From positions 5,022,001 through 5,086,000 of the forward strand of contig NZ_CP014304.1 in assembly GCF_001562275.1 (NCBI RefSeq): a stretch of DNA of 64,000 nt. The letters run 5' to 3'. The stretch is from Hymenobacter sp. PAMC 26628. Its GTDB lineage: Bacteria; Bacteroidota; Bacteroidia; Cytophagales; Hymenobacteraceae. Under the pieces are notes generated by a model, which did no database searches, was not told where the DNA came from, and saw only the letters and a list, made by a program, of their open reading frames with translations. The position numbers and the translations under genes were made by a program. Position 1 is the stretch's first letter. Every line of letters starts with the position of its first letter. Shown here piece by piece: positions 5,135 through 28,078 of the stretch.

Positions 5135-7114
5135 TTATGCGTCCCGCACCAGCTCCAACTCGGGGCGCAGGGGCATTTGCAGCGGCACGTTTTCCACGGT
5201 GAAGGTGCTGTTGTCGAGGCCAAAGCTTTCCTGGTCCGACACGCCCAGCCACTTCAGCCAGCCGTGCAGGCGCAGGGCCATGCGCTTCCAGCCGCGCAGG
5301 AAGTGCTGGTAGGGCACGGTTTTGTTGAGCAGCACAAACTGGAAGTCGCCCACCACGTCCTGTTCGCGCAAGCTTTCGTAGCGCGAGGTGATGTCGATTT
5401 CCTTGTTTTTGACCAGGTCGCCCACAATTTGGCGGAACATGTAGTTGATGGCGGGGTCGACGCGGAAGCCCAGTCGGATGTCGATGCGCACCAGCTCCTG
5501 CGGCAGTACGTGCGTGACGTGGTAGGAGCGGGTGTAGGGGTCGTCGGTGGTGTCGACGTGCACGAGGTAGTACACGTCGGCGCGCTTGGGGCGCTTTTTG
5601 AAGATGGAGTGGGCGATGCCGTTTTCGAGCTGCGAGCTGTCGGCCGACTTGGTGAGGTACACCAGGTGGGTGGCGAATTTGGGCACCGACTCATCGTTGC
5701 TCAGCTCCTGGAGCAGCGGCAGGTAGTCGGCCAGCGGTACCAGTTCGGTGAGGTCGTTGCGGATGCGCTGGCCCTGAATCCAGGCCACCATCACGGTCAG
5801 CAGCAGCACGCTCAGCAGGACGCTCAGCCAGCCGCCGTGGGTGAATTTGGCCAGGTTGGCCACCAGGAAAGAGCCTTCCACGGTGAAGTATACGCCGAGC
5901 AGCAGGAAAATCCAGACGGGGCTGGTACGGCGCAGGCGCAGGTAAAAGGCCAGCAGAACGGTGGTCATGAGCATGGTGATGGTGACAGCCAGACCGAAGG
6001 CCGCTTCCATCTTGCCCGACTCCCGGAACAGCAGCACCACCCCGATGCAGCCGGCGCACAGCAGCCAGTTGAGCGAGGCCACATAGGCCTGCCCGCGCAA
6101 TTCAGTGGGATAAGAAATGCGCACCTTGGGCCAGAAGTGCAGCCGCAGCGCCTCAATGACGAGCGTGAACGAGCCCGAAATCAGGGCCTGCGAGGCAATG
6201 ATGGTGGCCAGCGTGCATAGGACGATGGCCGGCAGCAGCAGCGCCGGCGGTATCATCAGGAAAAACAGATTCTGCTCGCCCAGCGGCGCGCCCAGGTGGC
6301 GCAGCAGCCAGGACCCCTGCCCCAGGTAGTTGAGCACGAGGCAGATTTTGACGAACGTCCACGACACGTAGATGTTGGGCCGGCCCACGTGGCCCATATC
6401 GGCGTAGAGCGCCTCGGCCCCGGTGCTGCACAGGAATATCGAGCCCAGTAGCCAGAACGCGCCCGGCACCCGCGTCACCATGTGCACGGCGTAGTACGGG
6501 TTCAGCGCCCGCAGAATGCTGAAATCATGAATCAGCTCTTTGAAACCGAGCACGGCCAGCATGGAGAAGAAGAGCACCATCACCGGTCCGAAAAACTTGC
6601 CGATGATGGCCGTGCCGAACTGCTGAAACGCAAACAGGCCCACCAGAATGACGATGACGATGGGCACCGTGTTCAGGTCGGGCTTGAGGATGCGCAGGCC
6701 CTCAATGGCCGAGGCCACCGAGATGGGCGGCGTGATGATGCCGTCGGCCAGCAGGGCCGCCGCGCCGATGATGGCGGCCAGGTACAGCCACTTCACCCGC
6801 AGCCGCCGCAGCCGGGCAAACAGGGCCAGGATGCCGCCCTCGCCATTATTATCGGCTTTTAGCGCAATGAAGACGTATTTGACGGTGGTGAGCAGCGTGA
6901 GCGTCCAGAGAATGGCGGAAATGGTGCCGAGCACCACGTCCTCCGTCACGGGCCGGCTCACGAACACGCCGCGCACGGTGTAGAGCGGCGAAGTACCAAT
7001 GTCGCCGTACACGATGCCGAGGGCAATGAGCGTACCGGCGGCGGAGGCGCGGGAAAGCGGGTTGGCGTGGGCCGATGGGACCGCCGCGGTCAGGGCGGGA
7101 ATGCTAGTTGGCAT
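5135..7114 (-). CDS. kup: Kup/HAK family potassium uptake transporter (copy 2)
   Basis: A 659-residue paralogue of the protein at 3019-5055. It has the signature YGDIGTSPLYTV, ADNNGEGGILAL and ADGIITPPISV, about 12 membrane segments, and a C-terminal domain aligned with copy 1 (KRPKRADVYYLVHV against KQPKRADRYWFINM). Predicted function is K+/H+ symport. The ATG at 7114 gives a normal-length N-terminus. It is transcribed divergently from the porin at 7475 across a 360-bp region carrying a 15-bp palindrome that recurs near kdp. Two tandem Kup copies suggest different affinities or different control. Confidence 0.93.
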   Translation of the reverse strand: MPTSIPALTAAVPSAHANPLSRASAAGTLIALGIVYGDIGTSPLYTVRGVFVSRPVTEDVVLGTISAILWTLTLLTTVKYVFIALKADNNGEGGILALFARLRRLRVKWLYLAAIIGAAALLADGIITPPISVASAIEGLRILKPDLNTVPIVIVILVGLFAFQQFGTAIIGKFFGPVMVLFFSMLAVLGFKELIHDFSILRALNPYYAVHMVTRVPGAFWLLGSIFLCSTGAEALYADMGHVGRPNIYVSWTFVKICLVLNYLGQGSWLLRHLGAPLGEQNLFFLMIPPALLLPAIVLCTLATIIASQALISGSFTLVIEALRLHFWPKVRISYPTELRGQAYVASLNWLLCAGCIGVVLLFRESGKMEAAFGLAVTITMLMTTVLLAFYLRLRRTSPVWIFLLLGVYFTVEGSFLVANLAKFTHGGWLSVLLSVLLLTVMVAWIQGQRIRNDLTELVPLADYLPLLQELSNDESVPKFATHLVYLTKSADSSQLENGIAHSIFKKRPKRADVYYLVHVDTTDDPYTRSYHVTHVLPQELVRIDIRLGFRVDPAINYMFRQIVGDLVKNKEIDITSRYESLREQDVVGDFQFVLLNKTVPYQHFLRGWKRMALRLHGWLKWLGVSDQESFGLDNSTFTVENVPLQMPLRPELELVRDA

Positions 7115-7474
7115 AGAGGCGAAAATGGGCCCGGTTGCAGGAGCAGCGGCTCGTGGTGCGGATGGCGAGCGGACGCCAACATGGGTACGCGAGAACTAAA
7201 GTTGGGTTTGCGGTATTCTCGGTCATTTTTAGAATATCCGGGCGGCCAACCTGGCAGTAGGCGAGAAGTAACGCGCGAAAGTAGCGCACTAGCGTTTTGA
7301 ACCAAGCCCCTAGCGAAACGCTAGCGGGCAAGACGCCTGCCCGCCGGATAGTGGCCTTTCAACGGCTTTTAGCGGGGCTGGTACAGTCGTTGGTGAGCGT
7401 AGTGGAAGAATAGAAAACGCCGTCTCCGCCTCGGAAAACCGGCATCCCGTTCCACTCAATCATTCCCTGTTTTC
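7115..7474. other. Divergent intergenic region kup / porin
   Basis: 360 bp without a convincing gene. It holds the palindrome CTAGCGAAACGCTAG at 7310-7324 with a matching half-site CTAGCGTTT at 7289-7297. The same motif occurs three more times around the DUF-like gene beside kdpF. A hairpin GCGGGCAAGACGCCTGCCCGC follows at about 7324-7344. Promoters for both flanking genes are expected here, but none matches a consensus well enough to call. Confidence 0.5.
7310..7324. promoter_or_regulatory. Palindrome CTAGCGAAACGCTAG, possible operator
   Basis: A 15-bp palindrome with 6-bp arms and AAA centre. The same sequence is at 27384-27398, and 14-base versions are at 27363-27376 and 27930-27943. All lie in intergenic DNA beside potassium genes in this window. 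It could be a protein-binding site or a small dispersed repeat. Confidence 0.4.
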
Positions 7475-8833
7475 ATGAAAGCAGTTATTACCGGTGCCCT
7501 GCTGTTGGGCGCCACCCTTGCTTCCGGCCAGGCATCCCCCATTGGCACGGGCGGCGGCAACCCACCCTCTCCAACCGCTTCCGACACCGCCCGCACCGCC
7601 AACGGCCGGGCCTTGCCGCAACCCCTGCCCGCGCTGCCGTTTCCGAGCGGGGAATGGATTGGCCCCGTCATCGGTGCCCCCGACCGCACATCGGTCTACC
7701 CGCTGCAAAAGGCCCTGGGCGGCCAGGCCAGTAGCCGCTACCGGGTATACGGCTGGGTCAATCCGTCGTTTTCGGCCAGCACCTCGAAGAACTCCAACAT
7801 TCCGGTGGCCTACAACATTCAACCCAACAAGCTGGTGCTGGACCAGGCCGTGCTGCGCTTCGAGCGCCCGATGAACACGGTGCAGACTGACCACGTGGAC
7901 TGGGGGTTTCGCTCCACGTTCATGTACGGCATCGACTACCGCTACACCCTGGCCAAGGGCCTGGTGAGCGACCCGCTGCTGAAGAAAAACAACCTGTACG
8001 GCTTCGACCCTATCGAGCAGTATGTCACGCTCTACGTGCCGAAAGTGGCCCAGGGCCTGACCTTGCGGGTGGGCCGCTACATCTCGCCGCCCGACATCGA
8101 GGCCCAGCTCGCGCCCGACAACTACCTGTTCAGCCACTCGCTCACGTTCAGCTACGACCCGTTCACTTTCACCGGCGCGCTGGCCGCGCTGCGCCTCTCG
8201 CCCCAGGTGACCGTGGAGCTGGGTGCCCACGCCGGCAACGAGCTGGTGCCCTGGAGCGAATCGGCCAAGCTCAACGGCCAGGCTTTCGTGCGCTGGGTGG
8301 CCCGCAACAACAACAATTCCGTTTTCGGCGGCATCAATTCGCTGGGCGAGGGCAGCTACTCGAAGGACCACGACAACGTGCAGATGGTAGTGGCTACCTG
8401 GGGCCACCGCTTCGGCCCCCGCGTGCACATGATGACCGAGGCCTACTACCTCTGGCAGTACGACGCGCTGGCCGGCGGCACCGTCATCGACGGGCCGGAT
8501 CAGCCCTGGGCCGGCTCCGGCGCGGGCGCCCTCATTCCGGGCCGCTCCAACTCGGTGGCGGCCGTCAATTACCTCCAGGTGCTGCTGTCCCCGACCAGCT
8601 ACCTGTCCGTCCGCAACGATGTGCTGAACGACATCGACGGGCAACGCACGGGCAATAAAACGGTGTATTCGAGCCACACCATCGGCTACATCAAGCACTT
8701 CGCGGGCGGCCTATTTACGTTCCGGCCCGAGGTGCGCTACGACCACGCCTACGCGGACGGGCTGCGGGCCTACGACAAGGGCACCCGCCGCGACCAGCTC
8801 ATCGGGGCGCTGGATTTGATTGCGCATTTCTAA
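7475..8833 (+). CDS. OmpL-like outer membrane beta-barrel porin (BBP2 type)
   Basis: 452 residues with a cleavable signal peptide (MKAVITGALLLGATLASG) and a small-residue-rich linker. A long run of amphipathic strands follows, with the alternating aromatic pattern of an outer membrane barrel and a C-terminal LIAHF. It aligns over its full length with the protein at 20528-21883; shared segments include NTVQTDHVDWGF, DIEAQ-APDNYL-SHSL and YYLWQYDA / YYIWQYDA. The likely role is passive uptake of small solutes or ions. The gene lies 51 bp upstream of the divergent kdpA, suggesting cotranscription with kdpA-kdpC. Substrate specificity is inferred only from this context. Confidence 0.78.
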   Translation: MKAVITGALLLGATLASGQASPIGTGGGNPPSPTASDTARTANGRALPQPLPALPFPSGEWIGPVIGAPDRTSVYPLQKALGGQASSRYRVYGWVNPSFSASTSKNSNIPVAYNIQPNKLVLDQAVLRFERPMNTVQTDHVDWGFRSTFMYGIDYRYTLAKGLVSDPLLKKNNLYGFDPIEQYVTLYVPKVAQGLTLRVGRYISPPDIEAQLAPDNYLFSHSLTFSYDPFTFTGALAALRLSPQVTVELGAHAGNELVPWSESAKLNGQAFVRWVARNNNNSVFGGINSLGEGSYSKDHDNVQMVVATWGHRFGPRVHMMTEAYYLWQYDALAGGTVIDGPDQPWAGSGAGALIPGRSNSVAAVNYLQVLLSPTSYLSVRNDVLNDIDGQRTGNKTVYSSHTIGYIKHFAGGLFTFRPEVRYDHAYADGLRAYDKGTRRDQLIGALDLIAHF

Positions 8834-8884: not shown

Positions 8885-10597
8885 ATGCTTCTCAACATCT
8901 TCACCGCTGCCCTGCTCTTCGGCCTGGCCGTGCTGCTGGCCTGGCCCCTGGGCTGCTACATGGCCCGCGTGTACGCCGGCGAGCGCACCTGGCTGCACTT
9001 TCTTACCCCGCTGGAACGGGGCTTTTACCGCCTCGCCCGCCTCAACCCGGAGCAGGGCATGACCTGGCAGCGGTACACGCTGGCGCTGCTGGGCGTGAAC
9101 GCCGTGTGGCTGGTCTGGGCCGTGCTGGTGCTGCTGGTGCAGGACAAGCTCCCCTTCTGGAACCCGGACCACATTCCGGCCATGAGCTTCCCGCAGGCCC
9201 TGCACACGGGCGTGAGCTTCCTCACCAGCACCAACGCCCAGCACTATTCGGGCGAAACCGGGGCCTCGTACTTCGCTCAGATGGCGGTGTTCACGTTCCT
9301 GCAGTTCGTGAGCGCGGGTACCAGCCTGGCCGCTGGCATTGCCGTGGTGCGGGCCCTGGGCGGGCGCGAATCGACCAACGTGGGCAACTTCTACCAGGAT
9401 TTGGTGCGCTCCTGCGTGCTGATTCTGCTGCCGCTGTGCCTGGTGTTCTCGGTGCTGTTTCTGCTCACGGGCGTGCCGATGACGTTTGAGGGCGCGGCGG
9501 CCTACACCTCGCTCGAAGGCGCGGCCGGCACGGTGGCGCGGGGGCCGGTGGCGGCCCTGCTCGCTATCAAAGAGCTGGGCTCGAACGGGGCCGGCTTTTT
9601 CGGGCCGAACTGCGCGCACCCGTTCGAAACGCCCAACTTCGCGGCTTTCGCCCTGCACCACGTGGCTGTGCTGCTCACGCCGATGGCCTTCGTGTTTATG
9701 CTGGGCTACTACCTGCGGCAGCCGCGGTTTGCGCGCATGGTGTTCGGGGTGATGACGGCCGGACTGCTGCTGCTGTTAGTGCCGGCCGTCGCCGCCGAAA
9801 TGCACGGCACGCCCTTCCTGAATGCGCTGGGCCTCGACCCGGCGGCGGCCGGCAACCTGGAGGGCAAGGAAATCCGCTTCGGCGTGTTCCATACCGCGTT
9901 CTATAATGCCTTCAACATGGCCATTCCGGCTGGTACGCTGGCGGGCGCGCAGGACAGCTTCGCACCCCTGGCCGGGGCCCCGTTCATGCTTCTGATGCAG
10001 ATTGACGCCTTTTTTGGCGGCCTGGGCACGGGCTTCCTCAATTTCCTCATCTACCTCGTCATCGCCGCCTTCGTGGGCAGCCTGATGGTGGGCCGCACCC
10101 CCGAGCTGCTGGGCAAGAAGGTGGAAGCCCGCGAGATGCAGCTGGCCACGCTGGTGGCCGTGGCGCAGCCGGTAGTGGTGCTGGCCTGCACCGCGGTGGC
10201 CGCCTGGGTGTATCAGCGCACCCCCGACGCCGCCAACTCGCTGAAGTGGCTCGGTAATCCTGGCAGCCACGGCTTCACGGCCATGCTCTACGAGTTTGTT
10301 TCGGCCGCCGCGGGCAACGGCTCGGGCTACGGCTCGCTGGGCAGCAACACCCCGTTCTGGAACCTGGTGCCCTGCCTGGCCATGCTCAGCGGGCGCTTCG
10401 TGCCCATCATCGGGGCGCTGGTGCTGGGCGCGGGCCTGCGGGCCAAGCCCTACACGCCGCCAAGCGTGGGCGGCATCCGGCTCGAAAGCTTCACGTTTGC
10501 CGTGCTGCTGGTCGTGGTCATCGGCATTCTGGGGGCGCTGCTGTTTTTCCCGGCGCTGGCGCTGGGGCCCCTAGCCGAGTTTTTCGCCAATCGTTAA
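8885..10597 (+). CDS. kdpA: Divergent KdpA-like potassium channel subunit
   Basis: 570 residues from the ATG at 8885, chosen because MLLNIFTAALLF starts the first membrane helix; a TTG 21 bases earlier is in frame but unlikely. KdpA is the pore subunit of the high-affinity K+-ATPase KdpFABC. Pore-loop signatures are present: TNAQHYSGE, SNGAGFFGPNCAHPFE, and AGNGSGYGSLGSNTPFWN. The third loop is odd. Where KdpA proteins have a TTVTSNG-VNAMHDS type sequence, this protein reads FNMAIPAGTLAGAQDS, so only the glycine and the DS are kept. It precedes kdpC directly, and no kdpB or kdpF lies nearby. It may pair with the KdpB at 22614-24659 or have a separate role. Confidence 0.88.
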   Translation: MLLNIFTAALLFGLAVLLAWPLGCYMARVYAGERTWLHFLTPLERGFYRLARLNPEQGMTWQRYTLALLGVNAVWLVWAVLVLLVQDKLPFWNPDHIPAMSFPQALHTGVSFLTSTNAQHYSGETGASYFAQMAVFTFLQFVSAGTSLAAGIAVVRALGGRESTNVGNFYQDLVRSCVLILLPLCLVFSVLFLLTGVPMTFEGAAAYTSLEGAAGTVARGPVAALLAIKELGSNGAGFFGPNCAHPFETPNFAAFALHHVAVLLTPMAFVFMLGYYLRQPRFARMVFGVMTAGLLLLLVPAVAAEMHGTPFLNALGLDPAAAGNLEGKEIRFGVFHTAFYNAFNMAIPAGTLAGAQDSFAPLAGAPFMLLMQIDAFFGGLGTGFLNFLIYLVIAAFVGSLMVGRTPELLGKKVEAREMQLATLVAVAQPVVVLACTAVAAWVYQRTPDAANSLKWLGNPGSHGFTAMLYEFVSAAAGNGSGYGSLGSNTPFWNLVPCLAMLSGRFVPIIGALVLGAGLRAKPYTPPSVGGIRLESFTFAVLLVVVIGILGALLFFPALALGPLAEFFANR

Positions 10598-10627
10598 TCC
10601 GTTTTACCCTTTCTTTCTGTTACGCTC

Positions 10628-11191
10628 ATGATTCATTTGCTGCGTCCCGTGCTGCTAAGCGGCTTGTTGCTGCTCACGTTTGGCTTTGTGTTTCCGGGGG
10701 TGCTGTGGGCCATCGGCCGGCTGGTGCCGGGTACGGCGGCGGGTTCGCCGGTGGTCGTGCGGGGCCGGGTGGTGGGCTTCGAGCGCATCGGCCAGAAGTT
10801 CACGCAGGCCCGCTATTTCCACGGGCGCCCCTCGGCCGTGGACTACAACGCGGCCGCCACCGGTGCTTCCAACGCCGGCCCGTCCAACCCCGATTTTCAG
10901 GCTGCAGTGCGGGCCCGGCTCGACACCTTGCTGCGTCAAAACCCGGTTCTGCACCGCGGGCAGGTGCCTACGGAGCTGGTCACGGCCTCCGCTTCCGGCA
11001 TCGACCCCGACCTTTCGCCGGCGGGCGCCTACGCGCAGGTGGCCCGAGTGGCCGCCGCCCGAAAGCTCCCGCCCGCGGAGGTGAAAACACTGGTGGATGC
11101 CTTAGTGGAGCAGCCGTGGCTGGGCTTTATGGGACCCGCCCACGTGAACGTGATCCGGCTGAACCTGGCGATGGACGCGCAACGGCCCTAG
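10628..11191 (+). CDS. kdpC: KdpC subunit (partner of the divergent KdpA)
   Basis: 187 residues with one N-terminal membrane helix (about 5-30) and a periplasmic domain. Family signatures are RYFHGRPSAVDYN, GPSNPDF and SASGIDPDLSPAGAYAQ. KdpC stabilises the KdpFABC complex. The gene starts 31 bp after kdpA, so the pair is probably cotranscribed, but kdpB, which normally separates them, is absent. The stop codon overlaps that of the minus-strand esterase-like gene inside a CTAG. A second kdpC is at 22038-22598. Confidence 0.9.
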   Translation: MIHLLRPVLLSGLLLLTFGFVFPGVLWAIGRLVPGTAAGSPVVVRGRVVGFERIGQKFTQARYFHGRPSAVDYNAAATGASNAGPSNPDFQAAVRARLDTLLRQNPVLHRGQVPTELVTASASGIDPDLSPAGAYAQVARVAAARKLPPAEVKTLVDALVEQPWLGFMGPAHVNVIRLNLAMDAQRP

Positions 11192-14384: not shown

Positions 14385-16160
14385 CTACCCGGCCACCGGC
14401 AGGGTAAAGTGAAACGTGCTGCCGCTGCCCAGCTCGCTTTCGACCCACAGCCGCCCGCCCTGCGTGGTGATGAACTCGCGGGCAATGCTCAGGCCCAGGC
14501 CCGAGCCGCCGCGGTAGCCAGCCTTGTCGGGCAGTTGGGCGAAGCGCTGGAAGATTTTGTCGTGGTGCTCGGCCGCAATGCCCGGCCCGCGGTCCTGCAC
14601 GCTCACCTGCACGAAGGTACCCGCCACGGCGGCGCGCACGGTTAGGCATTCGCCGCGGGGCGAGTAGCGGATGGCGTTGGCCAGCAGGTTGATGAGCACC
14701 CAGGTGGTTTTCTCCACGTCGGCGCGCACGGTGGGCAGGTCCGGGGCTAGTTGCAGGTCAAGGCGCAACTGCTTGTCGTCGAGTTGGGGCTGCACGGTGG
14801 CGGTGGCGAAGCCCATTACTTCGGCCAGGGGGGTAGGGCGCACTTCGAGCTGGATGCCCGTGCCGGCATCGAGGCGCGAGACGTCGAGCAGCTCGCCTAC
14901 CATGCGCTGCAGGCGCTGCGTTTCCTGGCGGATGTGGCCCGTGATGCGCTGCCGCTCGTCGGCGGGCAGGCGCTCGTCCTGCAGCAGCTTGGTGTTGAGG
15001 TTGATGCTGGACAGCGGCGTCTTCAACTCGTGCGACACCGTAGCTAGGAAATTCGACTTCACTTGGTCGAGCTTCTTGTAGTCCGATACGTTGCGCAGGG
15101 TTAGAATTTGGCCCACGAATTCGTTCTTGTTCAGCGCTTCGTTGAACGAAACCAGCTCCTGCACCGCGAGGCGGTAGTATGCTTCCTCGCCTTGCTGCAC
15201 AATGCGCAGCAGCGGGGCATCGGCCACGGCCTGCTCGCGGCGAGCCGCCTGCACCTCCAGCGGGCGCAGGATTTCCTGCATTAGGTCGTTTTCCTGCGCC
15301 ACGGCGGCGGCGGACTGGCCCACGAGCTGCTCCACCGGCCGACTGAGCAGGGCACAGGCCACCGGGTTGGCCAGGATGATGCAGCGGTGCTCATCCAATA
15401 ACAGCAGGCCTTCATCGAGCCCGCTCACGATGCTGGCCGCCCGGTTGCGCTCGGTTATCAGTTCCGCCAGCGTCGAGCTGCGGTACTCCTGCAGCTGCAC
15501 CAGCATCTGGTTGAAGGCCCGGGCCACCCGCCCGTATTCGTTGCTGTGCTCAATGGGAATGGTGGCCGTGAAGTTGTTGTCCGTGGCGTGCTCCAGGCTC
15601 TGGGTGAGCTTGCGCAGGGGCCCCACGGCGGCTTCGGGCACGCTCAGCACAAACATCAGGCCCAGCAGCAGGCTCATCACCACAAAGGCCACCAGGTAGC
15701 GCCCGGCCTGGGTGGCGTTCACGTTGGCCAGCTCGTTTTTGCGGGTCAGGGCGGCGGTGTTCAGGGCCACCATGCGGTAGGTTTGCCGGCGCAGCAGGTC
15801 CAGCGTGGGGGCGCGGGCGGCGGCGGGGGCCCCGGCATCGAGCAGGCGCTGGAAATCCGACTGGTTCTGAATCAAGCTGTCCACTAGCTCCTTTTCGCCC
15901 GTCTCCGTGATGTTGCCGGCCTCGCGCACTAGGCTTTGGCGGAAGCGCGGTAGGCCCGTGGGCACGTTGGGCGTGGTTTCCATCTGGTCGAGGGCCCGTT
16001 GCATCTGCTGGCCCAGCTCCACGGAGTAGAAGTTCTCCTTGAGCACGTCGCGCGAGCCGCGGTCCAGCCGGTGCACGGTGTAGTAGGCGTAGCCGCCCAA
16101 GCCCAGCAGCAAAGCCAGCATCGCCACGAAGCCGAGCGTAATAAGGGTTTTTAGGTTCAC
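14385..16160 (-). CDS. Membrane sensor histidine kinase (HAMP-PAS-HisKA-HATPase), Kdp-associated
   Basis: 591 residues from a GTG start (VNLKTLITLG). Layout: TM1 about 6-27, extracytoplasmic sensor with NITETGEKELVDSL, TM2 about 150-170, HAMP, PAS-like domain, SHELKTPLS with H377, N box NLLANAIRYS, G boxes DRGPGIAAE and GGSGLGLS. It is a full-length paralogue of 1227-2990. The gene starts 19 bp after a free-standing KdpD sensor module, and the two likely replace a single KdpD: sensing in one polypeptide and kinase in the other. The target is probably one of the sigma-54 regulators in the window, since no KdpE is seen. Confidence 0.87.
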   Translation of the reverse strand: MNLKTLITLGFVAMLALLLGLGGYAYYTVHRLDRGSRDVLKENFYSVELGQQMQRALDQMETTPNVPTGLPRFRQSLVREAGNITETGEKELVDSLIQNQSDFQRLLDAGAPAAARAPTLDLLRRQTYRMVALNTAALTRKNELANVNATQAGRYLVAFVVMSLLLGLMFVLSVPEAAVGPLRKLTQSLEHATDNNFTATIPIEHSNEYGRVARAFNQMLVQLQEYRSSTLAELITERNRAASIVSGLDEGLLLLDEHRCIILANPVACALLSRPVEQLVGQSAAAVAQENDLMQEILRPLEVQAARREQAVADAPLLRIVQQGEEAYYRLAVQELVSFNEALNKNEFVGQILTLRNVSDYKKLDQVKSNFLATVSHELKTPLSSINLNTKLLQDERLPADERQRITGHIRQETQRLQRMVGELLDVSRLDAGTGIQLEVRPTPLAEVMGFATATVQPQLDDKQLRLDLQLAPDLPTVRADVEKTTWVLINLLANAIRYSPRGECLTVRAAVAGTFVQVSVQDRGPGIAAEHHDKIFQRFAQLPDKAGYRGGSGLGLSIAREFITTQGGRLWVESELGSGSTFHFTLPVAG

Positions 16161-16179: not shown

Positions 16180-17349
16180 TCAATAGGTTACTAAGTAGAT
16201 GTCGAGGTCGGTGCGGTCCTGCGCCACGGCCCGGAGGAGGTCATTGGTCACCCCGCGTCGGGAGAATTGCTCCCACAACCCTTTTTCGCCCGTGACGCCG
16301 CAGACGAGCAGGGTAGCGTTTTTCTCGGCCGCTACCCGCCGGATGGCCCCCACGATGTCGTCGTCCTTCACGCGCAGGATTTGGGCCCCCAGCTCGGTGG
16401 CCAGTTGGAGGTTGTTGAGGAGGTGGCGCTGCGCGGCCAGCCCGATGCGGTCGGCGCTCTCGCGGCCGGTTTGCACGTACAGCACGTACCAGGCGGCGGC
16501 CCCGAAGCGGTCGGCCAGGCGCGAGGTCTTGCGGATGATTTCCTTGGCCGCCGCGTCGTTGGAGTTGATGCAGGCCAGCAGGCGGTCGTCGTTGCGGCGG
16601 CTGGGCAGCACGGAGGGGGCCCCGCCGCCGCTGGTCTCCACCTGGTGGCCCAGCAGCTGGGCCACTTCGCGCACGGCCAGGCGCCGCAGCTGCAGCAGGT
16701 TTTCGGCCTGGAAGAAGTTGGCCAGCGCCGTGGGCACCTTGGCCGCGTCGTAAATCTTGCCTTCCTCCAGGCGGGCGCGCAGCTCGCCCACGGTCAGGTC
16801 CACGTTCACCACCTCGTCGGCCAGCTTGAGGAGCCGGTCGGGGACGCGCTCGGTCACGTCGGTGCCGGTGATTTTCAGCACCTGGTCGTGCAGGCTTTCC
16901 AGGTGCTGCACGTTCACGGCCGTTATCACCGAAATGCCTTTCTGCACCAACTCCTCCACGTCTTGCCAGCGCTTTTCGTGGCGCGAGCCGGGCACGTTGG
17001 AGTGGGCCAGCTCGTCCACAATCACCACCTGCGGGCGCTGCTTCTCGATGGCGTCGAGGTCCATCTCGGCCAGGGCCCGGCCCTTGTAGAACACGTGCTT
17101 GCGGGGCAGCAGCGGCACGCCGCGCAGCTCGGCCTCGGTGCCGGCGCGGCCGTGGGTTTCCACGTAGCCCAGCAGCACGTGCACGCCGTGCTGGTGCAGC
17201 TCGTGCGCCTCTTGCAGCATGCGGAAGGTTTTGCCCACGCCGGCGGCCAGGCCCAGGTAAATCTTGAGCGTGCCGCGCCGCTTGCCCTGCACGAGGCGCA
17301 GGAACCGCTCGGCGGAAGAGTCGCGTTGGTCTTGCTCAAGCTCGGTCAC
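16180..17349 (-). CDS. kdpD: KdpD N-terminal sensor module, no kinase domain
   Basis: 389 residues from GTG at 17349. It contains the KdpD domain (about 20-230) with Walker A GLAAGVGKT and the conserved DELAHSNVPGSRHEKRWQDV, followed by a USP-like domain (about 240-385). Full KdpD proteins continue with four membrane helices, GAF and kinase domains, about 900 residues in all; none of that is present. The USP region is where nucleotides and regulators such as c-di-AMP act in some KdpD proteins. It lies between an outer membrane barrel gene (12 bp) and a separate kinase (19 bp), suggesting a split K+ sensor. Confidence 0.88.
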   Translation of the reverse strand: MTELEQDQRDSSAERFLRLVQGKRRGTLKIYLGLAAGVGKTFRMLQEAHELHQHGVHVLLGYVETHGRAGTEAELRGVPLLPRKHVFYKGRALAEMDLDAIEKQRPQVVIVDELAHSNVPGSRHEKRWQDVEELVQKGISVITAVNVQHLESLHDQVLKITGTDVTERVPDRLLKLADEVVNVDLTVGELRARLEEGKIYDAAKVPTALANFFQAENLLQLRRLAVREVAQLLGHQVETSGGGAPSVLPSRRNDDRLLACINSNDAAAKEIIRKTSRLADRFGAAAWYVLYVQTGRESADRIGLAAQRHLLNNLQLATELGAQILRVKDDDIVGAIRRVAAEKNATLLVCGVTGEKGLWEQFSRRGVTNDLLRAVAQDRTDLDIYLVTY

Positions 17350-20527: not shown

Positions 20528-21883
20528 TTAAAACCGGATAATCAAGTCCATCGCGCCCATAAACTGGTCGCGGCGGCTGCCGTTGTCATACGGCGTTGCG
20601 TCGGCGGCGTAGGCGCGTTCGTAGCGCACCTCGGGCCGGATGCGCACCAGGGAGTTGAAATTGTGAATTAGCCCGAGGGTGTGGCTGGTATAGGTGGTGG
20701 CGTAGGAGGTGCGGTTGCCCTGCGGGTCGAGTAGCAGGTCGTTGCGCAGCGACACGTAGTCTTTAGGGCTGAGCTGCACCTGGAAGTAGTTCACGAAGCC
20801 CACGGCGTTGGAACGGCCGGGCTGCAGGCTGCCTTCGCCCACGCCGGGGTAGAAGCGCCGGGGCGGGCCGTCGATGGCCGTGCCGCCCACGGCAGCGTCG
20901 TACTGCCAGATGTAGTACCCCTCCGTCATGGTATGCACTTTGGGGCTGAAGCGGTGGCCCCAGGTGGCCACCGCCATTTGCAGGTTGTCGTGCCCGGCGC
21001 TATACTCACCGCTGCCAATGGAGTTGATGCCAGCGTACACCGAGTTGGCGTTGTTGCGCGACACCCAGCGGAACATGGCCAGCCCGTTGAGATGGGCCGA
21101 GTTGCTCCACACGGCCACGTCGTTGCCGCCGTGCAGGCCCAGCTCAATCTGCCAGTATGGGCTCAGCCGGATAGTGGCCTGCGCCCCGCTGAAGGTGTAA
21201 GGGTCCACGGCAAACATCAGCGAGTGCGAATACAAGTAGTTGTCGGGGGCCCACTGGGCCTCAATGTCGGCCGGCGAGATGAAGCGTCCCACCTTCAGCA
21301 GCAGGCCCTGCGCCACATGGGGCAGGTAGAGCATGGCATACACCTGGGTGGGATCGTAGCCGTAGAGGTTGTTGCGCTGGAGTAGCTGGTCGCTGAAAAT
21401 GCCCTTGGCGATGGTGTAGCGGTAGTCGATGCCGTAAATATTATCGACCAGAAAGCCCCAGTCCACATGGTCGGTTTGCACGGTATTGGGCTGGCGCTCC
21501 AGGCGCAGAATAATCTGGTCAAGCACGACCGTGTTGGGCACGATGTTGTAGGCCGTGGGAGCGTTCGAATCGTGCGAAGTACTCAAATTGCCGCCCACCG
21601 AGGCCCAGCCATACACCTTGAAGCGCTTGCCGGCCAGGCCCAGGGCCTTTTGCAGCGGGTAGTCGGGCGCTTCGGCGGGCAGGCCCACCACCGGTGCCCC
21701 GTCCCATTCCGTCACCGGAAACGGGCCTGAGAGGGGCGAGGGCAGGCAGCGGCCGTTGCTGCCGTCCACGGTGGGCCGGCCGGCGGGCGCGGGGCGGCGG
21801 GCGGTGGTGGTGTCGGCCTGGGCCAGTACCCCGAAAGGCAGGGCCGCGAGGCCCATCAGGCAAATGAGTACACGAGCATTCAT
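20528..21883 (-). CDS. OmpL-like outer membrane beta-barrel porin, paralogue of 7475-8833
   Basis: 451 residues with signal peptide MNARVLICLMGLAALPFGVL. It aligns end to end with the porin beside the divergent kdpA (ATWGHRFSPKVHTMTEGYY against ATWGHRFGPRVHMMTEAYY) and ends in MDLIIRF. It starts 154 bp after kdpC. Each kdpA/kdpC set therefore has its own copy of this porin, which suggests a functional link, such as outer membrane K+ entry, though this is inferred. Confidence 0.78.
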   Translation of the reverse strand: MNARVLICLMGLAALPFGVLAQADTTTARRPAPAGRPTVDGSNGRCLPSPLSGPFPVTEWDGAPVVGLPAEAPDYPLQKALGLAGKRFKVYGWASVGGNLSTSHDSNAPTAYNIVPNTVVLDQIILRLERQPNTVQTDHVDWGFLVDNIYGIDYRYTIAKGIFSDQLLQRNNLYGYDPTQVYAMLYLPHVAQGLLLKVGRFISPADIEAQWAPDNYLYSHSLMFAVDPYTFSGAQATIRLSPYWQIELGLHGGNDVAVWSNSAHLNGLAMFRWVSRNNANSVYAGINSIGSGEYSAGHDNLQMAVATWGHRFSPKVHTMTEGYYIWQYDAAVGGTAIDGPPRRFYPGVGEGSLQPGRSNAVGFVNYFQVQLSPKDYVSLRNDLLLDPQGNRTSYATTYTSHTLGLIHNFNSLVRIRPEVRYERAYAADATPYDNGSRRDQFMGAMDLIIRF

Positions 21884-22037: not shown

Positions 22038-22598
22038 CTACTTGCCAGCCAGCGCATCCAGCGCCAGGTTCAGCTTTAGCACGTTCACCCGGTCGGGGCC
22101 GATGGGGTTGGTTTCAATCTGCTGCTGCACCAGGGCCTGCACCTGGGCCGGGGCCAGGCGGCGGGCGGCGGCCACCCGCGCCACCTGCACCAGGGCCCCC
22201 TGGGGCGAGAGGTGCGGGTCGAGGCCCGAGCCGCTGGCGGTAATCAGCTCGGCGGGCACGTCGGCGGCTTTCACACCGGGATTCTGGAGCAGAAAGGTAT
22301 CCAACCGGGCCTTCACCACGGCCAGGTATTCGGGGTTGCTGGGGCCTTTGTTCGAGCCCGAGCTGGCATCGGCGTGGTAGTCGGCCGCCGAAGGGCGCGA
22401 GTTGAAGTATGCGGGCTTGTCGAACTTCTGGCCCACGTTGGCGAAGCCGACCACGCGGCCGTCGCGGCTGATTTGGACGCCTTCGCCGCGGCCGGGGGCC
22501 ACTTGGGCCACGGCCCACACCAGGGCTGGGTAGAGGACGCACACCAGCACCAGCATAGCCAGGGAGAGCCGGAGGGCGGAAATAAGTTGGGTTTTCAT
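22038..22598 (-). CDS. kdpC: KdpC subunit of the K+-transporting ATPase
   Basis: 186 residues with one N-terminal membrane helix and a periplasmic domain. Signatures: AYFNSRPSAADYHAD, NKGPSNPEYL and GSGLDPHLSPQGALVQ. It lies 15 bp after kdpB in the normal B-C order. It assembles with KdpF, A and B into the high-affinity K+ pump. It is clearly related to, but distinct from, KdpC at 10628-11191. Confidence 0.94.
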   Translation of the reverse strand: MKTQLISALRLSLAMLVLVCVLYPALVWAVAQVAPGRGEGVQISRDGRVVGFANVGQKFDKPAYFNSRPSAADYHADASSGSNKGPSNPEYLAVVKARLDTFLLQNPGVKAADVPAELITASGSGLDPHLSPQGALVQVARVAAARRLAPAQVQALVQQQIETNPIGPDRVNVLKLNLALDALAGK

Positions 22599-22613: not shown

Positions 22614-24659
22614 TTAGAGGAAGGCCCCGACAATCAGGTCAATGACTTTGATGCCGATAAAGGGCACGATGACCCCGCCCAGGCCATAAATCAGCAGGTT
22701 GCGACGCAGCAAGGCCGACGCCCCGATGGGCGTGTAGCTCACGCCTTTCAAGGCCAGCGGCACCAGGGCCGGGATGATGAGGGCGTTGAAAATAACCGCG
22801 CTCAGGATGGCCGACTGCGGCGACTTCAAGCCCATGATGTTCAGGGCCCCCAGGGCGGGGATGGCCACCATGAACAGGGCCGGCACGATGGCGAAGTACT
22901 TGGCCACGTCGTTGGCGATGGAAAACGTGGTGAGCGTGCCGCGCGTCATCAGCAGCTGCTTGCCAATCTCCACCACTTCGATGAGCTTGGTGGGGTCGTT
23001 GTCGAGGTCCACCATGTTGCCGGCTTCCTTGGCGGCCTGGGTGCCGCTGTTCATGGCCACGCCCACGTCGGCCTGGGCCAGGGCGGGGGCGTCGTTGGTG
23101 CCGTCGCCCATCATGGCCACCAGCTTGCCGGCCTGCTGCTCGGCGCGGATGTACTGCATCTTGTCCTCGGGCTTGGCCTCGGCGATGAAGTCGTCCACCC
23201 CCGCTTTCTGGGCGATGAAGCGGGCGGTGAGCGGATTGTCGCCGGTCACCATCACGGTCTTGATGCCCATTTTGCGCAGGCGCTCGAACCGCTCCTGGAT
23301 GCCGGGCTTGATGATGTCCTGCAGTTCCACCACGCCCAGCACCCGGTCGTTCTCGCTGAGCACCAGCGGGGTGCCGCCGTTGCTGGCCACCGCCGTCACG
23401 CGGTCGGCCGTTTCGGTCGGAAACTCGTTGCCGGCCGCGTTCGAAAGCACCCGGATGGCGTCGGAAGCGCCCTTGCGGATGCGCGTGCCATCGGCCAGCG
23501 TCACGCCCGAGCTGCGGGTTTCGGCCGTGAACTTGATAAGCTCGGCCCCATCCAGGCGGCGGCGTAGCTGCGCGGGGTCCACCTTGTTGTCGCGGGCCAG
23601 CTCCACAATGCTTTTGCCTTCGGGAGTTTCATCGGTGAGCGAACTTAAGGTGGCAAACTCCACGAACTGGCCCATGGCCACGCCGGGAGCGGGCCAAAAA
23701 TGGGTTGCCTTGCGGTTGCCAATGGTAATGGTGCCGGTCTTATCAAGCAGCAGCACGTCGATGTCGCCGGCCGTTTCCACGGCTTTGCCGCTTTTGGTGA
23801 TGACGTTGGCGCGCAGGGCCCTATCCATGCCGGCGATGCCGATGGCCGAGAGCAGCCCGCCGATGGTGGTTGGAATCAGGCACACAAACAGGGCGATGTA
23901 GGCCGACACGGCCAGGGGCGTTTTGGCGTATTCGGCAAACGGCGCCAGCGTCACGCACACAATCACGAACACGAGCGTGAAGCCGGCCAGCAGGATGGTG
24001 AGGGCAATTTCGTTGGGCGTTTTCTGCCGCGAGGCCCCCTCCACCAGGGCAATCATCTTGTCGAGGAACGACTCGCCGGGGGCCGTCGTGACCTGCACCA
24101 CGATGCGGTCGGAGAGCACCTTGGTGCCGCCCGTGACCGACGACTTATCGCCGCCCGCCTCGCGGATGACCGGGGCCGACTCGCCGGTGATGGCCGACTC
24201 GTCGATGGTGGCCAGGCCCTCGATGATCTCGCCGTCGGTGGGGATGATTTCCCCGGCTTCGACCACGAACACCTGGCCTTTCTGGAGCTGGGCCGAACTC
24301 ACGGCCACCATCTGCCCGTCGGGTTGGCGCACGTTGGCGGGGGTGTCCTGGCGGGTTTTGCGGAGCGAGTCGGCCTGGGCCTTGCCGCGGGCCTCGGCAA
24401 TGGCCTCGGCGAAGTTGGCGAAGAGCAAGGTCAGGAACAGCACCACGAACACCGTGGCGTTGTAGCCGAAGCTGCCCTGTTTGGGGTCGGGGTTGACGAG
24501 CAGGCCGAGCGTGACGAAGAGCATCACCACGGTGCCGATTTCCACGGTGAACATCACCGGGTTGCGGAACATGGTGCGCGGGTCGAGCTTCACGAACGCC
24601 TGGCCAATGGCTTCGCGGACGAGGGCGGGTTGAAAAAGGGATTGGGACTGGGTAGCCAT
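22614..24659 (-). CDS. kdpB: KdpB, catalytic P-type ATPase subunit
   Basis: 681 residues from ATG 24659 ([18 protein letters not shown]). The frame is open further upstream, but that part overlaps the ynfA-like gene and lacks KdpB character. P-type signatures are all present: TGES in the actuator domain, DKTGTIT with the phosphorylated D306, and [16 protein letters not shown] in the hinge. KdpB hydrolyses ATP to energise K+ import through KdpA. It is the only kdpB in the window although there are two kdpA and two kdpC genes. It is flanked by the ynfA-like gene (41 bp upstream) and kdpC (15 bp downstream). Confidence 0.95.
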
Positions 24660-25166: not shown

Positions 25167-26867
25167 TTAATACAGCGTGAAGTGCTCGGCCAGGGGCCCC
25201 AGGGCCAGGGCCGGGAAAAAAGCTAGCGCGGCGATGATCCAAATCACGAAGAAGACCATCACGCCGAAGGTGGCCGTGTCGACGCGCAGGGTGCCGGCGC
25301 TTTCGGGGATGAACTTCTTGCGGGCCAACAGCCCGGCGATGGCCACCGGCCCGATGATGGGCAGGTAGCGCGCCAGCAGCATCACGATGCCCGTGCTGAT
25401 GTTCCACCAGGGCGTGTTGTCGCCGAGGCCCTCGAAGCCCGAGCCGTTGTTGGCGGCCGAGGAGGTGTACTCGTAGAGCATTTCGGAGAAGCCGTGGTAG
25501 CCGGGGTTATTTAGCCAGGAGGCGTATTCGGTGGGATGGCCAGCGTAGCCGTGCGCGGCCAGGGCGGTGCCGGCCAGGATGAGCAGCGGGTGCAGCAGGG
25601 CGATGAGGATGGCAATTTTCATTTCGCGGGCCTCGATTTTCTTGCCCAAAAATTCCGGGGTGCGCCCCACCATCAGCCCCGAGATGAACACGGCCACGAT
25701 GATGAAGACAAAGAAGTTGAGGAAGCCCACCCCCACCCCGCCGTAGAAGGCGTTGGTCATCATGCCCAGCAGCGCGTTCATGCCCGAGAGGGGCGTGAGC
25801 GAGTCGTGCATGGCATTGACGGAGCCGTTGCTGGTGACGGTGGTCTGAATGGCCCACAGCGCCGAAGCGGCCGCACCAAAGCGCACCTCCTTGCCTTCCA
25901 TTGAGCCCAGAGACTGATTAACCCCCAGGTGCGTAATGGCCGGGTTGCCGTGCATTTCCAGGGCCACGGTGGGCACTTGCAGCAGCAGGTAGCCGGCCGT
26001 CATCACCCCAAATACCATCCAGCCCAGCCGGGGCCGGCCCAGGTAGAAGCCGAAGGCCAGCGCCATGGCAATGGGAATGAGCACGATGGCCCCGTTCTCC
26101 ACGGCGTTGGTGAAATACGTCGGGTTTTCGAGCGGGTGGGCCGAGTTGACGCCGAAGAAGCCGCCGCCGTTGGTGCCGATCTGCTTAATACCAATCAGGG
26201 CCGCGGCGGGGCCCCGGCTCACGTTCACCGAGTCGCCCTGCACCGTCACAATCGGGGCTTTGGCGGCCCAGTTCATGGGCGTGCCTTGGAATACCAGCAC
26301 CAGTGCCACGGCCAACGAAAGCGGCAGCAGCACGCGGGTGATGCTCTTGACGAAGTAGTTGTAGAAGTTGCCGAGCTTGTCGTTGCTGCCTTCCTTCAGG
26401 GCATTGAACACGACCACGCAGGCGGCCATGCCGGTGGCGGCCGTCACGAACTGCAGGAACATCAGGCAGAATACCTGCGAGAAGTACGTGGCGCCCGACT
26501 CGCCGGAGTAGTGCTGCAGGTTGCAGTTCACCAAGAAAGAAATAGCCGTGTTGAACGCTTGGTCGGGCGACATCGACGGGTTGTGGTCGGGGTTGAGCGG
26601 CAGGCTGCCTTGGGTGCAGAGCACGAGCATGGCCCAGAAGAACCACACCAGGTTGATGGTAAGCAGCGCCACCAGGTGCTGCTGCCAGGTCATGCCCCGG
26701 TTGGCGTCGATACCGCCAGCGCGGAACAGCAGCCGCTCCAGGGGCCCGAGGAAATCAGTCCAGCTTTTATCGCCGCGGTAAATGGTAGCCAGGTAGCGGC
26801 CCAGCGGAATGGCCAGCAGCACCGTGCTGGCGAAGATGAGCAGGATGCCGAGTAGGTCTTTGTTCAT
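25167..26867 (-). CDS. kdpA: KdpA, potassium-translocating subunit
   Basis: 566 residues with about ten membrane helices and four pore loops in canonical form: NCNLQHYSGES, GTNGGGFFGVNSAHPLENP, TTVTSNGSVNAMHDSL, and SSAANNGSGFEGLGDNTPWWN. The C-terminal MVGRTPEFLGKKIEAREMK is typical. It forms the selective K+ pathway of KdpFABC. kdpF lies 128 bp upstream, separated by a palindromic repeat. Compared with the KdpA at 8885-10597, all selectivity-filter regions here look standard. Confidence 0.95.
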   Translation of the reverse strand: MNKDLLGILLIFASTVLLAIPLGRYLATIYRGDKSWTDFLGPLERLLFRAGGIDANRGMTWQQHLVALLTINLVWFFWAMLVLCTQGSLPLNPDHNPSMSPDQAFNTAISFLVNCNLQHYSGESGATYFSQVFCLMFLQFVTAATGMAACVVVFNALKEGSNDKLGNFYNYFVKSITRVLLPLSLAVALVLVFQGTPMNWAAKAPIVTVQGDSVNVSRGPAAALIGIKQIGTNGGGFFGVNSAHPLENPTYFTNAVENGAIVLIPIAMALAFGFYLGRPRLGWMVFGVMTAGYLLLQVPTVALEMHGNPAITHLGVNQSLGSMEGKEVRFGAAASALWAIQTTVTSNGSVNAMHDSLTPLSGMNALLGMMTNAFYGGVGVGFLNFFVFIIVAVFISGLMVGRTPEFLGKKIEAREMKIAILIALLHPLLILAGTALAAHGYAGHPTEYASWLNNPGYHGFSEMLYEYTSSAANNGSGFEGLGDNTPWWNISTGIVMLLARYLPIIGPVAIAGLLARKKFIPESAGTLRVDTATFGVMVFFVIWIIAALAFFPALALGPLAEHFTLY

Positions 26868-26896
26868 GGAAATTGGAATTTCAGCAGGCCGTCATG

Positions 26897-26979
26897 TCGA
26901 GCGCCGCCGAGACATCTCGCTCGCTATCGTTGCATTGATTGAAGTAGTCTAACACGCGAGATGTCTCGGCGGCGCTCGA
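26897..26979. repeat. Perfect 24-bp inverted repeat between kdpF and kdpA
   Basis: Arms 26897-26920 and 26956-26979 (outer sequence TCGAGCGCCGCCGAGACATC) are perfect inverted repeats around a 35-base loop. It is a REP-like dispersed palindrome placed between kdpF and kdpA, where it can affect transcript stability or stoichiometry. Confidence 0.75.
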
Positions 26980-26995
26980 TATAACCGTTGTGTTT

Positions 26996-27076
26996 TCAGA
27001 ATTTTTCCGGTTTCAGCAGCACGTAGCACAGGTAGCCGAACGTGGCGAGGGCGAGCAGCAACAGGGCAAGCATCAT
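26996..27076 (-). CDS. kdpF: KdpF small subunit
   Basis: 26 residues from the first of two adjacent ATGs, too short for routine gene calling: MMLALLLLALATFGYLCYVL followed by LKPEKF. One membrane helix ending in the typical YxLLxPEKF of KdpF. It stabilises the KdpABC complex in the membrane. It is located upstream of kdpA on the same strand, as expected. Confidence 0.88.
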   Translation of the reverse strand: MMLALLLLALATFGYLCYVLLKPEKF

Positions 27077-27105: not shown

Positions 27106-27201
27106 TCAGATGCGGTCGAAGAAATCGACCGAGCGGTAAAAGAGCCAGAAGCCGGCTAGGCCCACGGCAGTCAGCAGCGGAATCATCAGAATGGGTATCA
27201 T
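27106..27201 (-). CDS. 31-residue membrane peptide upstream of kdpF
   Basis: An ORF of 31 codons beginning MIPILMIPLLTAVGLAGFWL and ending FYRSVDFFDRI: one hydrophobic helix followed by a charged amphipathic tail. It lies 29 bp before kdpF on the same strand, so it would be the first gene of the operon. I do not recognise a family. It could be a second KdpF-like accessory peptide or a leader. The hydrophobic profile and tight spacing favour it being real. Confidence 0.55.
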   Translation of the reverse strand: MIPILMIPLLTAVGLAGFWLFYRSVDFFDRI

Positions 27202-27362: not shown

Positions 27363-27398
27363 TAGCGTTTCGCTAGGGGTGAGCTAGCGAAACGCTAG
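27363..27398. promoter_or_regulatory. Paired palindromes TAGCGTTTCGCTAG / CTAGCGAAACGCTAG
   Basis: Two copies of the 14-15 bp palindrome (27363-27376 and 27384-27398) with a 7-base spacer, together a perfect 14-bp stem. It lies between the stop of the small gene at 27413 and the start of the kdp operon, so it could be a terminator for the former or an operator for kdp. Confidence 0.45.
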
Positions 27399-27412: not shown

Positions 27413-27763
27413 TTAAGGCAGCATGTTGCCATGCGAGCGGGCATAAGCCTGGTACAGGCCCACGGGCATTAGCTGACGGGCCAGTTGGTTGCCGTAGGTG
27501 CTGCCATCGAGGTGCAGGCAGTGCAGGTACGCGGTTTCGATGGCCGCGGAGAGGTAGCGGTCGGCCCGCCGCAATAGACTGTCGGCCACGGCGAAGCAAT
27601 GGCGGAGCAGGTCAAGTTCGCCTCCGGCGACGGCCCGGCGGGTGAAGTCGGCGAAGCAGTCGAGCTGACGATACAGGCTGGTGCAGGTTTGCGGCGCGTG
27701 CAGGGCCTCGCATAGCTCGGGGAATTCGACCGTGAGCAAATCGGCCGTCTCAAGTGGGGTCAT
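27413..27763 (-). CDS. Uncharacterised small helical protein upstream of kdp operon
   Basis: 116 residues, almost all helical, with several Cys and Leu heptads (LTVEFPELCEAL, LYRQLDCFADFTRRAV, HCLHLDGSTYGNQLARQLMP). It is on the kdp strand, 211 bp before the 31-residue peptide. It resembles small Bacteroidota proteins of the DUF7674 type, which I can only suggest from memory of the pattern. Placement between the sigma-54 regulator and kdp suggests a regulatory or accessory role, but no catalytic motif is visible. Confidence 0.55.
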   Translation of the reverse strand: MTPLETADLLTVEFPELCEALHAPQTCTSLYRQLDCFADFTRRAVAGGELDLLRHCFAVADSLLRRADRYLSAAIETAYLHCLHLDGSTYGNQLARQLMPVGLYQAYARSHGNMLP

Positions 27764-28078
27764 CGGAAAAGAATGAAAAGAGTGAAGCCACTCAAGTGGC
27801 GTAGCTCCTTTGCATCAAGGCTGGTACCACGGATGCCTACTTCGGGGTCCACCATTCCTGGCTACTGAATGTCAATTCATTACCATTTGTTAGGCCACTG
27901 TGCTCGGTTGGTCGTTCTGCTCGTCACCGTAGCGTTTCGCTAGGGCGATGTGCAAAACGCTACGGTGGCCGCCCGGCGCAAGGGCTGTGAACAGCCCCTA
28001 AGCGCAATTGGCAGGATTGGCCTTGGGTTTGGGGGCTGAACGAAGCCCCTTTGCGTGAAGGACCCAACACCCTGTTCG
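27764..28078. other. Divergent intergenic region with palindromes
   Basis: 315 bp without a gene. It contains the 14-bp palindrome TAGCGTTTCGCTAG at 27930-27943, embedded in a larger inverted repeat ACCGTAGCGTTT (27926-27937) / AAACGCTACGGT (27955-27966). Promoters for the flanking divergent small genes are expected here. No clear -24/-12 sigma-54 site could be identified. Confidence 0.45.

Follow-up and report, generated by a model that had tools for sequence, protein, structure and literature searches.

TrkG and TrkH both work with a shared partner, TrkA, and kdp1 and kdp2 of Anabaena are duplicated kdp operons. According to PMC9898762, TrkG of Escherichia coli K-12 depends on Na+ to take up K+ and transports Na+ as well, which TrkH does not. 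For the KdpFABC pump, PMC12629597 describes an S3 filter site that sets selectivity, an S4 site held partly by two side-chain oxygens, and a KdpA variant, G232D, that passes Rb+ and NH4+ with coupling kept, KdpB being rather promiscuous; on this account a KdpA with a different filter working on the same KdpB is mechanistically plausible, since with the tunnel route it is KdpA that sets the selectivity. Here we analyse a 64,000-nucleotide stretch of Hymenobacter sp. PAMC 26628 (contig NZ_CP014304.1, positions 5,022,001 to 5,086,000; "the window") that carries a second kdpA-kdpC pair, kdpA2-kdpC2, besides a normal kdp operon. In our reading, to which we give a probability of about two in three, KdpA2 (with KdpC2 in Hymenobacter) would be an alternative ion-selecting subunit that docks on the shared KdpB and so makes an alternative pump.

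The comparison involves the following genes of the window:
8885..10597, + strand: KdpA2 (full-length on PF03814, 615.6 bits, cut-off 22.6; equivalog model TIGR00680, 500.6, cut-off 387.7; alignments)
10628..11191, + strand: KdpC2 (full-length on PF02669, 208.7 bits, cut-off 24.1; TIGR00681, 161.6, cut-off 152.55; synteny, tree)
7475..8833, + strand: BBP2 beta-barrel porin upstream of kdpA2, 51-bp gap (PF07642, 105.3 bits; BLASTP)
25167..26867, - strand: KdpA1, the ordinary KdpA of the main operon (PF03814, 749.1 bits; TIGR00680, 616.4 bits)
22614..24656, - strand: KdpB (TIGR01497, 1020.9 bits; genome search, residue check)
22038..22598, - strand: KdpC1 of the main operon (PF02669, 211.9 bits)

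The earlier note on this DNA had described an intact KdpA and KdpC lying next to each other beside a porin of their own, and this description holds. Both proteins pass their family models over the full length, their genes are spaced by 30 bp, and the porin, which is 57% identical to that of the main operon (BLASTP), forms with them a unit entirely on the + strand. The main operon lies about 11 kb downstream on the - strand and comprises a KdpF-like peptide, kdpA1, kdpB and kdpC1, with porins and then a KdpD-like sensor part and a histidine kinase on its 3' side. As the note had also stated, the sole KdpB of the window belongs to this complete kdpA1-kdpB-kdpC1 operon, 11.4 kb from the pair. No KdpB adjoins kdpA2-kdpC2, so that the unit is not a KdpFABC operon in which KdpB is encoded with its KdpA and KdpC, and no KdpF-like open reading frame (ORF) was seen in the 98-300 bases upstream of kdpA2 at four loci (the window, L052, L118 and L119). 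The pair is not a recent copy, because KdpA2 is only 47% identical to KdpA1 and KdpC2 only 50% to KdpC1. The whole genome (5.37 Mb, 99.99% complete) encodes two KdpAs, two KdpCs and one KdpB, which at 1020.6 bits on TIGR01497 is the only protein over the cut-off, the next P-type ATPase reaching 195.4.

What the earlier note did not contain is a changed selectivity filter. We read the four filter segments from an alignment to E. coli KdpA, whose numbering is used throughout (112-114, 230-232, 343-345 and 466-468). In KdpA2 these segments are STN, SNG, PAG and GNG, and the window protein carries N112S, T230S, S343P, C344A and N466G, together with G233A, which occurs in this genome only; it keeps R493 and R400 and has Asp at the position of E370. 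The same pattern recurs in all 18 KdpA2s found: S112, P343-A344-G345, G466 and the Asp at 370 are present in every one, and position 230 is Ser in 17 and Ala in one. Among 101 other KdpAs (95 from Bacteroidota, 6 others; sequences shorter than 500 residues had been dropped before counting) T230 and N466 are invariant, position 343 holds Ser or Thr, and N112 is present in 100, a fixity that is partly one of definition, as the split between ordinary KdpA and KdpA2 was made by the filter itself (at least two of the four positions changed). KdpA2 thus lacks the ordinary combination of T230, S/T343, N466 and N112. The clade formed by the KdpA2s in sequence trees is an independent check on the split; one further filter-changed sequence, KdpA3, falls outside it.

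The changes are concentrated in the filter. Among 125 columns conserved in at least 97% of 90 ordinary KdpAs, 14 are altered in at least 11 of 13 KdpA2s; the filter loops account for 6 of these among their 18 conserved columns, the rest of the protein for 8 among 107 (Fisher p 0.0057, with thresholds and loop definition chosen after the filter had been seen). The filter glycines 232, 345 and 468, as well as N114 and Q116, are nevertheless fixed in 13/13 KdpA2s. From their place in the segments, residues 230 or 343 would be among the side chains that hold S4. An ordinary, redundant K+ subunit that does the same transport on the shared KdpB and is kept for gene dosage would likewise pass the KdpA equivalog model and keep the filter glycines; about 50% divergence, and the replacement of otherwise invariant filter residues alike in all 18 sequences, make this explanation highly improbable.

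KdpA2 was found in 18 genomes: four of Hymenobacter, four of Mucilaginibacter, nine of Spirosomataceae and one of another family (G1259). The total pools five surveys made with KdpA2 as the query, with overlaps removed, the contig of one Spirosomataceae metagenome-assembled genome (MAG) being identical in both collections. KdpA2 occurs in 4/200 genomes of the window's family, 5/390 of its order, 2/395 of its class, 4/399 of the family of Mucilaginibacter lappiensis and 9/222 of the family that includes the Spirosomataceae MAG. Any KdpA at all was present in 96/200, 126/390, 63/395, 296/399 and 136/222 of these genomes, respectively, so that many relatives have none. In four profile searches KdpA2s scored 849-1019 bits and all other matches at most 775; the 775-bit match (G924, class survey) has an ordinary filter, and most lower-scoring matches are classed as ordinary by score, the filter having been read in those fetched as loci. 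A scan of the whole collection with two exact peptide patterns missed KdpA2s carrying MQVDAFY or MQLDAFY and is no proof of absence elsewhere. Among 463 plasmid records, five of which were read for filter residues, none reached 60% identity.

In a tree of 63 KdpAs (13 KdpA2s, KdpA3, 43 ordinary Bacteroidota KdpAs of which 23 were picked to give context and 20 at random, and 6 outgroups) the 13 KdpA2s form one clade with support 100/100. This clade is excluded from a group (98/95) that comprises KdpA3 and 42 ordinary Bacteroidota KdpAs, with the long-branched L057, from a MAG, unplaced. A quicker tree of 79 rows from a short search, to which 5 KdpA2s and 11 ordinary KdpAs had been added, likewise unites all 18 KdpA2s (Shimodaira-Hasegawa-like approximate likelihood ratio test, 100). 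On this evidence the split of KdpA2 would either be older than the families that now hold it, or KdpA2 would have moved between them. The KdpC2s group with support of 80/54 in a KdpC tree, which does not resolve their origin.

All 18 genomes have as many KdpBs as ordinary KdpAs, with one each in 16 and two each in G200 and G1332; a missed gene is possible in G192 (91% complete), G1425 (82%) and G1259 (59%) and in the four Mucilaginibacter genomes, for which completeness is not stated, the other 11 being 99-100% complete. KdpA2 is therefore the unmatched subunit. The earlier note had raised the possibility of a second kdpB elsewhere in the genome; none scored over the cut-off in 16 of the 18, and the two genomes with two KdpBs have two ordinary KdpAs to go with them. 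On these counts we rejected a second kdp operon with its own KdpB. In the KdpB of the window and in those of 11 other clusters with KdpA2 or KdpA3, the residues TGES162, F232, P264, D300, D307, D583, K586 and N624 are kept.

The note had also proposed a survey of Bacteroidota for kdpA-kdpC pairs without kdpB. KdpA2 without a KdpB of its own does recur, in all 18 genomes, and the paired form turned out to be a Hymenobacter feature: a KdpC of its own, beyond that of the main operon, stands beside KdpA2 in the four Hymenobacter genomes only, and none was seen there in the other 14. In Spirosomataceae kdpA2 lies directly behind kdpC in eight of nine genomes. Seven of these have the order kdpA1-kdpB-kdpC-kdpA2-porin-kdpD on one contig (L117, L118, L119, L166-L169); in the eighth, the MAG (L123, L054), a contig break falls between kdpB and kdpC, and in the ninth (L170) kdpA2 is divergent from a regulator-kdpABC cluster. 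In two Mucilaginibacter genomes (L055, L056) kdpA2 is located between kdpC and kdpD, with intervening porins in L055; it follows the kdp cluster in M. lappiensis (L052) and precedes it in G1259 (L140). The kdpA2-kdpC2 unit of Hymenobacter caeli (L051) diverges from kdpA1; in the remaining three genomes of the genus a distance of about 10-11 kb separates it from the closest main-operon gene. Overall, kdpA2 is within about 11 kb of the nearest kdpABC gene in 17/18 genomes.

The surface by which KdpA meets KdpB is largely preserved. Of the KdpB-facing positions that PMC6255902 gives for KdpA (386, 389, 400, 421, 422, 513, 538 and 541), 386, 389, 400, 538 and 541 carry the same residue or class in 13/13 KdpA2s: R400 and L541 are invariant, 386 is aromatic, and 389 and 538 are aliphatic. 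The vestibule residue R493 is kept and position 370 is acidic in the same 13, and R493 and R400 were likewise present in the five KdpA2s found later. KdpA2 thus combines an altered filter with the vestibule and contact set of an ordinary KdpA (R493, R400 and hydrophobic 386, 389, 538 and 541).

These residues bear on the second of the two options offered in the earlier note, in which KdpA2, with KdpC2, would work independently of KdpB, as a passive or gated cation channel of the Trk/Ktr kind. KdpA belongs to the same fold superfamily, and an AlphaFold model of the KdpA2 chain alone resembles solved KdpA structures, with template modelling (TM) scores of 0.86-0.88, and KtrB and TrkH more weakly; the mean predicted local distance difference test (pLDDT) score of the model is 73.6 (13 rows), and its filter loops are of low confidence, their geometry not being readable. 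One KdpA2 is solitary in its neighbourhood (M. frigoritolerans), and KdpC2 could cap the pore of such a channel. However, KdpB over the cut-off is present in 18/18 KdpA2 genomes though many relatives lack Kdp, the KdpB-facing residues are kept, and KdpA2 retains the GGxGxG stretch, which we take to be part of the intramembrane loop. Known KdpA structures, according to PMC6255902, are sealed on the cytoplasmic side below the intramembrane loop. We consider a KdpB-independent channel unlikely.

A protein that keeps its contact residues while otherwise fixed filter residues are replaced (S343P, N466G, N112S) might also be a non-conducting decoy or regulator, drawing KdpB away from KdpA1 and so lowering the pump or changing its turnover, and the shared operator-like sites described below would permit its timed expression. 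A dead filter would be expected to drift, yet glycines 232, 345 and 468, N114 and Q116 are fixed in 13/13 KdpA2s and P343-A344-G345 is identical in 18/18, which leaves the decoy an improbable explanation.

Elements resembling operators precede both kdp units of the window:
7290..7323, no strand: half-site pair and palindrome (TAGCGTTTTG ... TAGCGAAACGCTA) before porin-kdpA2-kdpC2
27363..27397, no strand: the same operator-like element, with two palindromes, before kdpF-kdpA1
27930..27962, no strand: third operator-like copy, further upstream of the main operon

The 16-base sequence CCCTAGCGAAACGCTA occurs three times in the window with no mismatch, once before porin-kdpA2-kdpC2 (7308) and twice before the main operon (27363 and 27930), and in none of 100 shuffles. 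The core palindrome TAGCGWWWCGCTA is found four times in the window and not at all in a 400-kb sample of this genome (20 segments, each of 20 kb, out of 5.37 Mb), and we judged it unlikely to be a genome-wide dispersed repeat. The half-site TAGCGTTTYG occurs six times in the window, always within the three element sites, and three times in the 400 kb. Across the window's family it lies within 1.5 kb before kdpA1 in 14/40 distinct loci (18 sites), vs 0/40 in downstream flanks. It precedes both the kdpA1 and the kdpA2 unit in 3/4 Hymenobacter genomes; in G192 and G160 its distance from the start of kdpA2 is at most about 430 bp. To judge by these shared sites, the main operon and the kdpA2 unit are apparently co-regulated. 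A search with the sigma-54 consensus gave three weak matches, below the 17.5 expected by chance, and we make no sigma-54 claim. In H. caeli (G084) the intergenic region shared by kdpA1 and kdpA2 (L047:12100-12400) contains several CCATWWTGGTAGG-like stretches, perhaps an operator of its own.

Pairwise ratios of nonsynonymous to synonymous substitution rates (dN/dS), calculated by NG86 among the four Hymenobacter genomes, are 0.08-0.30 for KdpA2 and 0.18-0.50 for KdpC2, compared with 0.09-0.41 for KdpA1, 0.08-0.42 for KdpC1 and 0.01-0.25 for KdpB. By these estimates the kdpA2-kdpC2 pair is under purifying selection in the four genomes. The earlier note had considered absence or decay of the pair in close relatives, and here the outcome is divided: there is selection in Hymenobacter, yet only 4/200 genomes of the family sample carry KdpA2, and one member of Spirosomataceae (G906) retains no more than a KdpA2-like relic. 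This relic, of 52 residues (L120:6109-6264), is located between kdpC and a porin gene, is 63% identical to KdpA2 and has TSL at the conserved position 144 as KdpA2 does. Since it has Asn at 112, vs Ser in the 18 intact KdpA2s, it may derive from an earlier form of KdpA2. The patchy occurrence and the loss seen in G906 would suit the view that kdpA2-kdpC2 is the decaying remnant of an earlier second kdp operon. That view has very little chance of being right, given open frames, dN/dS well below 1, the same filter in four lineages, and no genome among the 18 with a KdpB in excess of its ordinary KdpAs.

Of the two options in the earlier note, then, the comparative evidence favours a complex with the shared KdpB over a KdpB-independent function, because of the kdpA-B-C-A2 gene order, the presence of KdpB in 18/18 genomes, the kept contact residues and the shared operator-like sites. 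This suggests one motor with two interchangeable ion filters in some Bacteroidota. KdpA2 would dock on the main-operon KdpB in place of KdpA1, and the main-operon KdpF would probably join the complex. In Hymenobacter KdpA2 would bring its own KdpC2, the subunit close to the filter, to give a second pump, KdpF-A2-B-C2. Ions would enter via the KdpA2 filter and pass through the inter-subunit tunnel to the KdpB binding site, ATP driving them inward. Because one residue is changed in each filter segment (112, 230, 343 and 466), this pump should differ in affinity or selectivity; it might be a K+ pump of lower affinity, or it might accept Rb+ or NH4+ as well. We infer from sequence comparison that the complex forms and that KdpA2 replaces KdpA1 in it, and likewise the ion and its affinity.

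Several observations weigh against a shared-KdpB pump. The S343P change loses a hydroxyl that is kept as Ser or Thr in 101/101 ordinary KdpAs, and this could mean a loss of conduction. Positions 421 and 513 vary (as they do in KdpA1), 422 is mostly V rather than L, and the contact residues that are kept could reflect plain inheritance; the KdpA2-KdpB complex itself we infer from sequences. The KdpA2 of M. frigoritolerans (L053) has no kdp gene within 10 kb, KdpB being present elsewhere in that genome. KdpA2 is rare and patchy (4/200, 4/399, 5/390, 2/395 and 9/222 in the surveys), and the relic of G906 is a sign of loss. As for regulation, G192 and G160 have the half-site only, without the full palindrome, and neither half-site nor palindrome was found in H. 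caeli (G084).

A second extra KdpA, KdpA3, was found in G1157 (98% complete, one KdpB) at L141:11645-13366, directly behind kdpC in a cluster kdpA1-kdpB-kdpC-KdpA3-porin-kup-kdpD. In the tree it groups among the ordinary Bacteroidota KdpAs and not with the KdpA2 clade, and its filter carries N114F, T230L, S343M, N466A and N467D, with P402 and E403 lost. Across conserved columns, its changes show no significant enrichment in the filter (4/18 vs 13/107, p 0.27); we therefore dropped it as a clear copy of the KdpA2 pattern and keep it as a single sequence and a possible parallel, which may be drifting. A wider proposal, tentative and less likely than not, is that Kdp is modular in some Bacteroidota, with one KdpB and interchangeable filters that would have arisen at least twice (the KdpA2 clade and KdpA3), and that KdpA2 pumps move either a different monovalent ion (NH4+, Rb+ or Cs+) or K+ at other concentrations.

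The remaining genes near the two kdp units of the window are:
5135..7114, - strand: Kup potassium transporter, divergent from porin-kdpA2-kdpC2 (PF02705, 507.4 bits)
14385-16160: histidine kinase, separate from the KdpD-like sensor part
16180..17349, - strand: KdpD-like N-terminal sensor part, named from sequence only; the gene order recurs beside kdp operons
20528..21883, - strand: BBP2 porin of the main kdp operon (PF07642, 103.9 bits)
26996..27076, - strand: 26-residue membrane peptide upstream of kdpA1 (translation, conservation in L047), which we take to be KdpF-like by its position and its likeness to KdpF

A 31-residue single-helix peptide (MIPILMIPLL...FFDRI; window 27106-27201, - strand) adjoins the KdpF-like gene, is conserved in H. 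caeli (L047), and may be an additional small subunit of Kdp. An ORF of 116 residues (window 27413-27763, - strand) is located between the regulator gene and kdpF, and one resembling it can be read by eye in G192 (L043, about 3640-4000). A long, almost perfect palindrome whose arms measure about 29 bases (window 26892-26984) lies between kdpF and kdpA1; it may be a dispersed element, because the 400 kb genome sample holds one further copy of an arm. A 136-residue ORF (L053:11732-12142) is found close behind the solitary KdpA2 of M. frigoritolerans.

If KdpA2 does work on the shared KdpB, it would be a natural experiment in which the filter subunit was exchanged in evolution and the ATPase retained. 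The view of an ion tunnel leading from KdpA into a promiscuous KdpB, with KdpA setting selectivity, could then be tested directly on natural filter variants fixed over long times instead of single laboratory mutants. Such genes are probably misnamed at present, as the window's KdpA2 scores as an ordinary KdpA over the equivalog cut-off. Among the open-access papers listed in our searches, judged by titles and the beginnings of abstracts, none was about an extra KdpA, whether orphan, paralogous or in a kdpA-kdpC pair without kdpB.

KdpFABC itself is a close relative: KdpA2 and KdpC2 are full-length members of its families, the predicted KdpA2 fold is that of KdpA, kdpA2 is near a kdp operon in 17/18 genomes, and the key residues of KdpB are standard where checked. 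It differs in that KdpA2 genomes have two KdpAs, and in Hymenobacter also two KdpCs, per KdpB, and in that the kdpA2 unit has a changed filter, no KdpB of its own and, at the four loci inspected, no KdpF. Complete duplicated kdp operons, as in M. lappiensis and in G1332, also give more than one KdpA per genome, but in those genomes every ordinary KdpA has its KdpB, whereas KdpA2 is extra and unmatched. On pMP1 of Deinococcus radiodurans no kdpB separates the neighbouring kdpA and kdpC; kdpB is, however, just upstream of kdpA in the cluster, and this KdpA has an ordinary filter. As a functional parallel, TrkG and TrkH come closest, being coexisting alternative channel subunits of the same superfamily that differ in ion dependence. 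KdpA2 is not a Trk protein, and Trk is not ATP-driven, whereas the partner shared by the alternative subunits here would be a P-type ATPase, KdpB.

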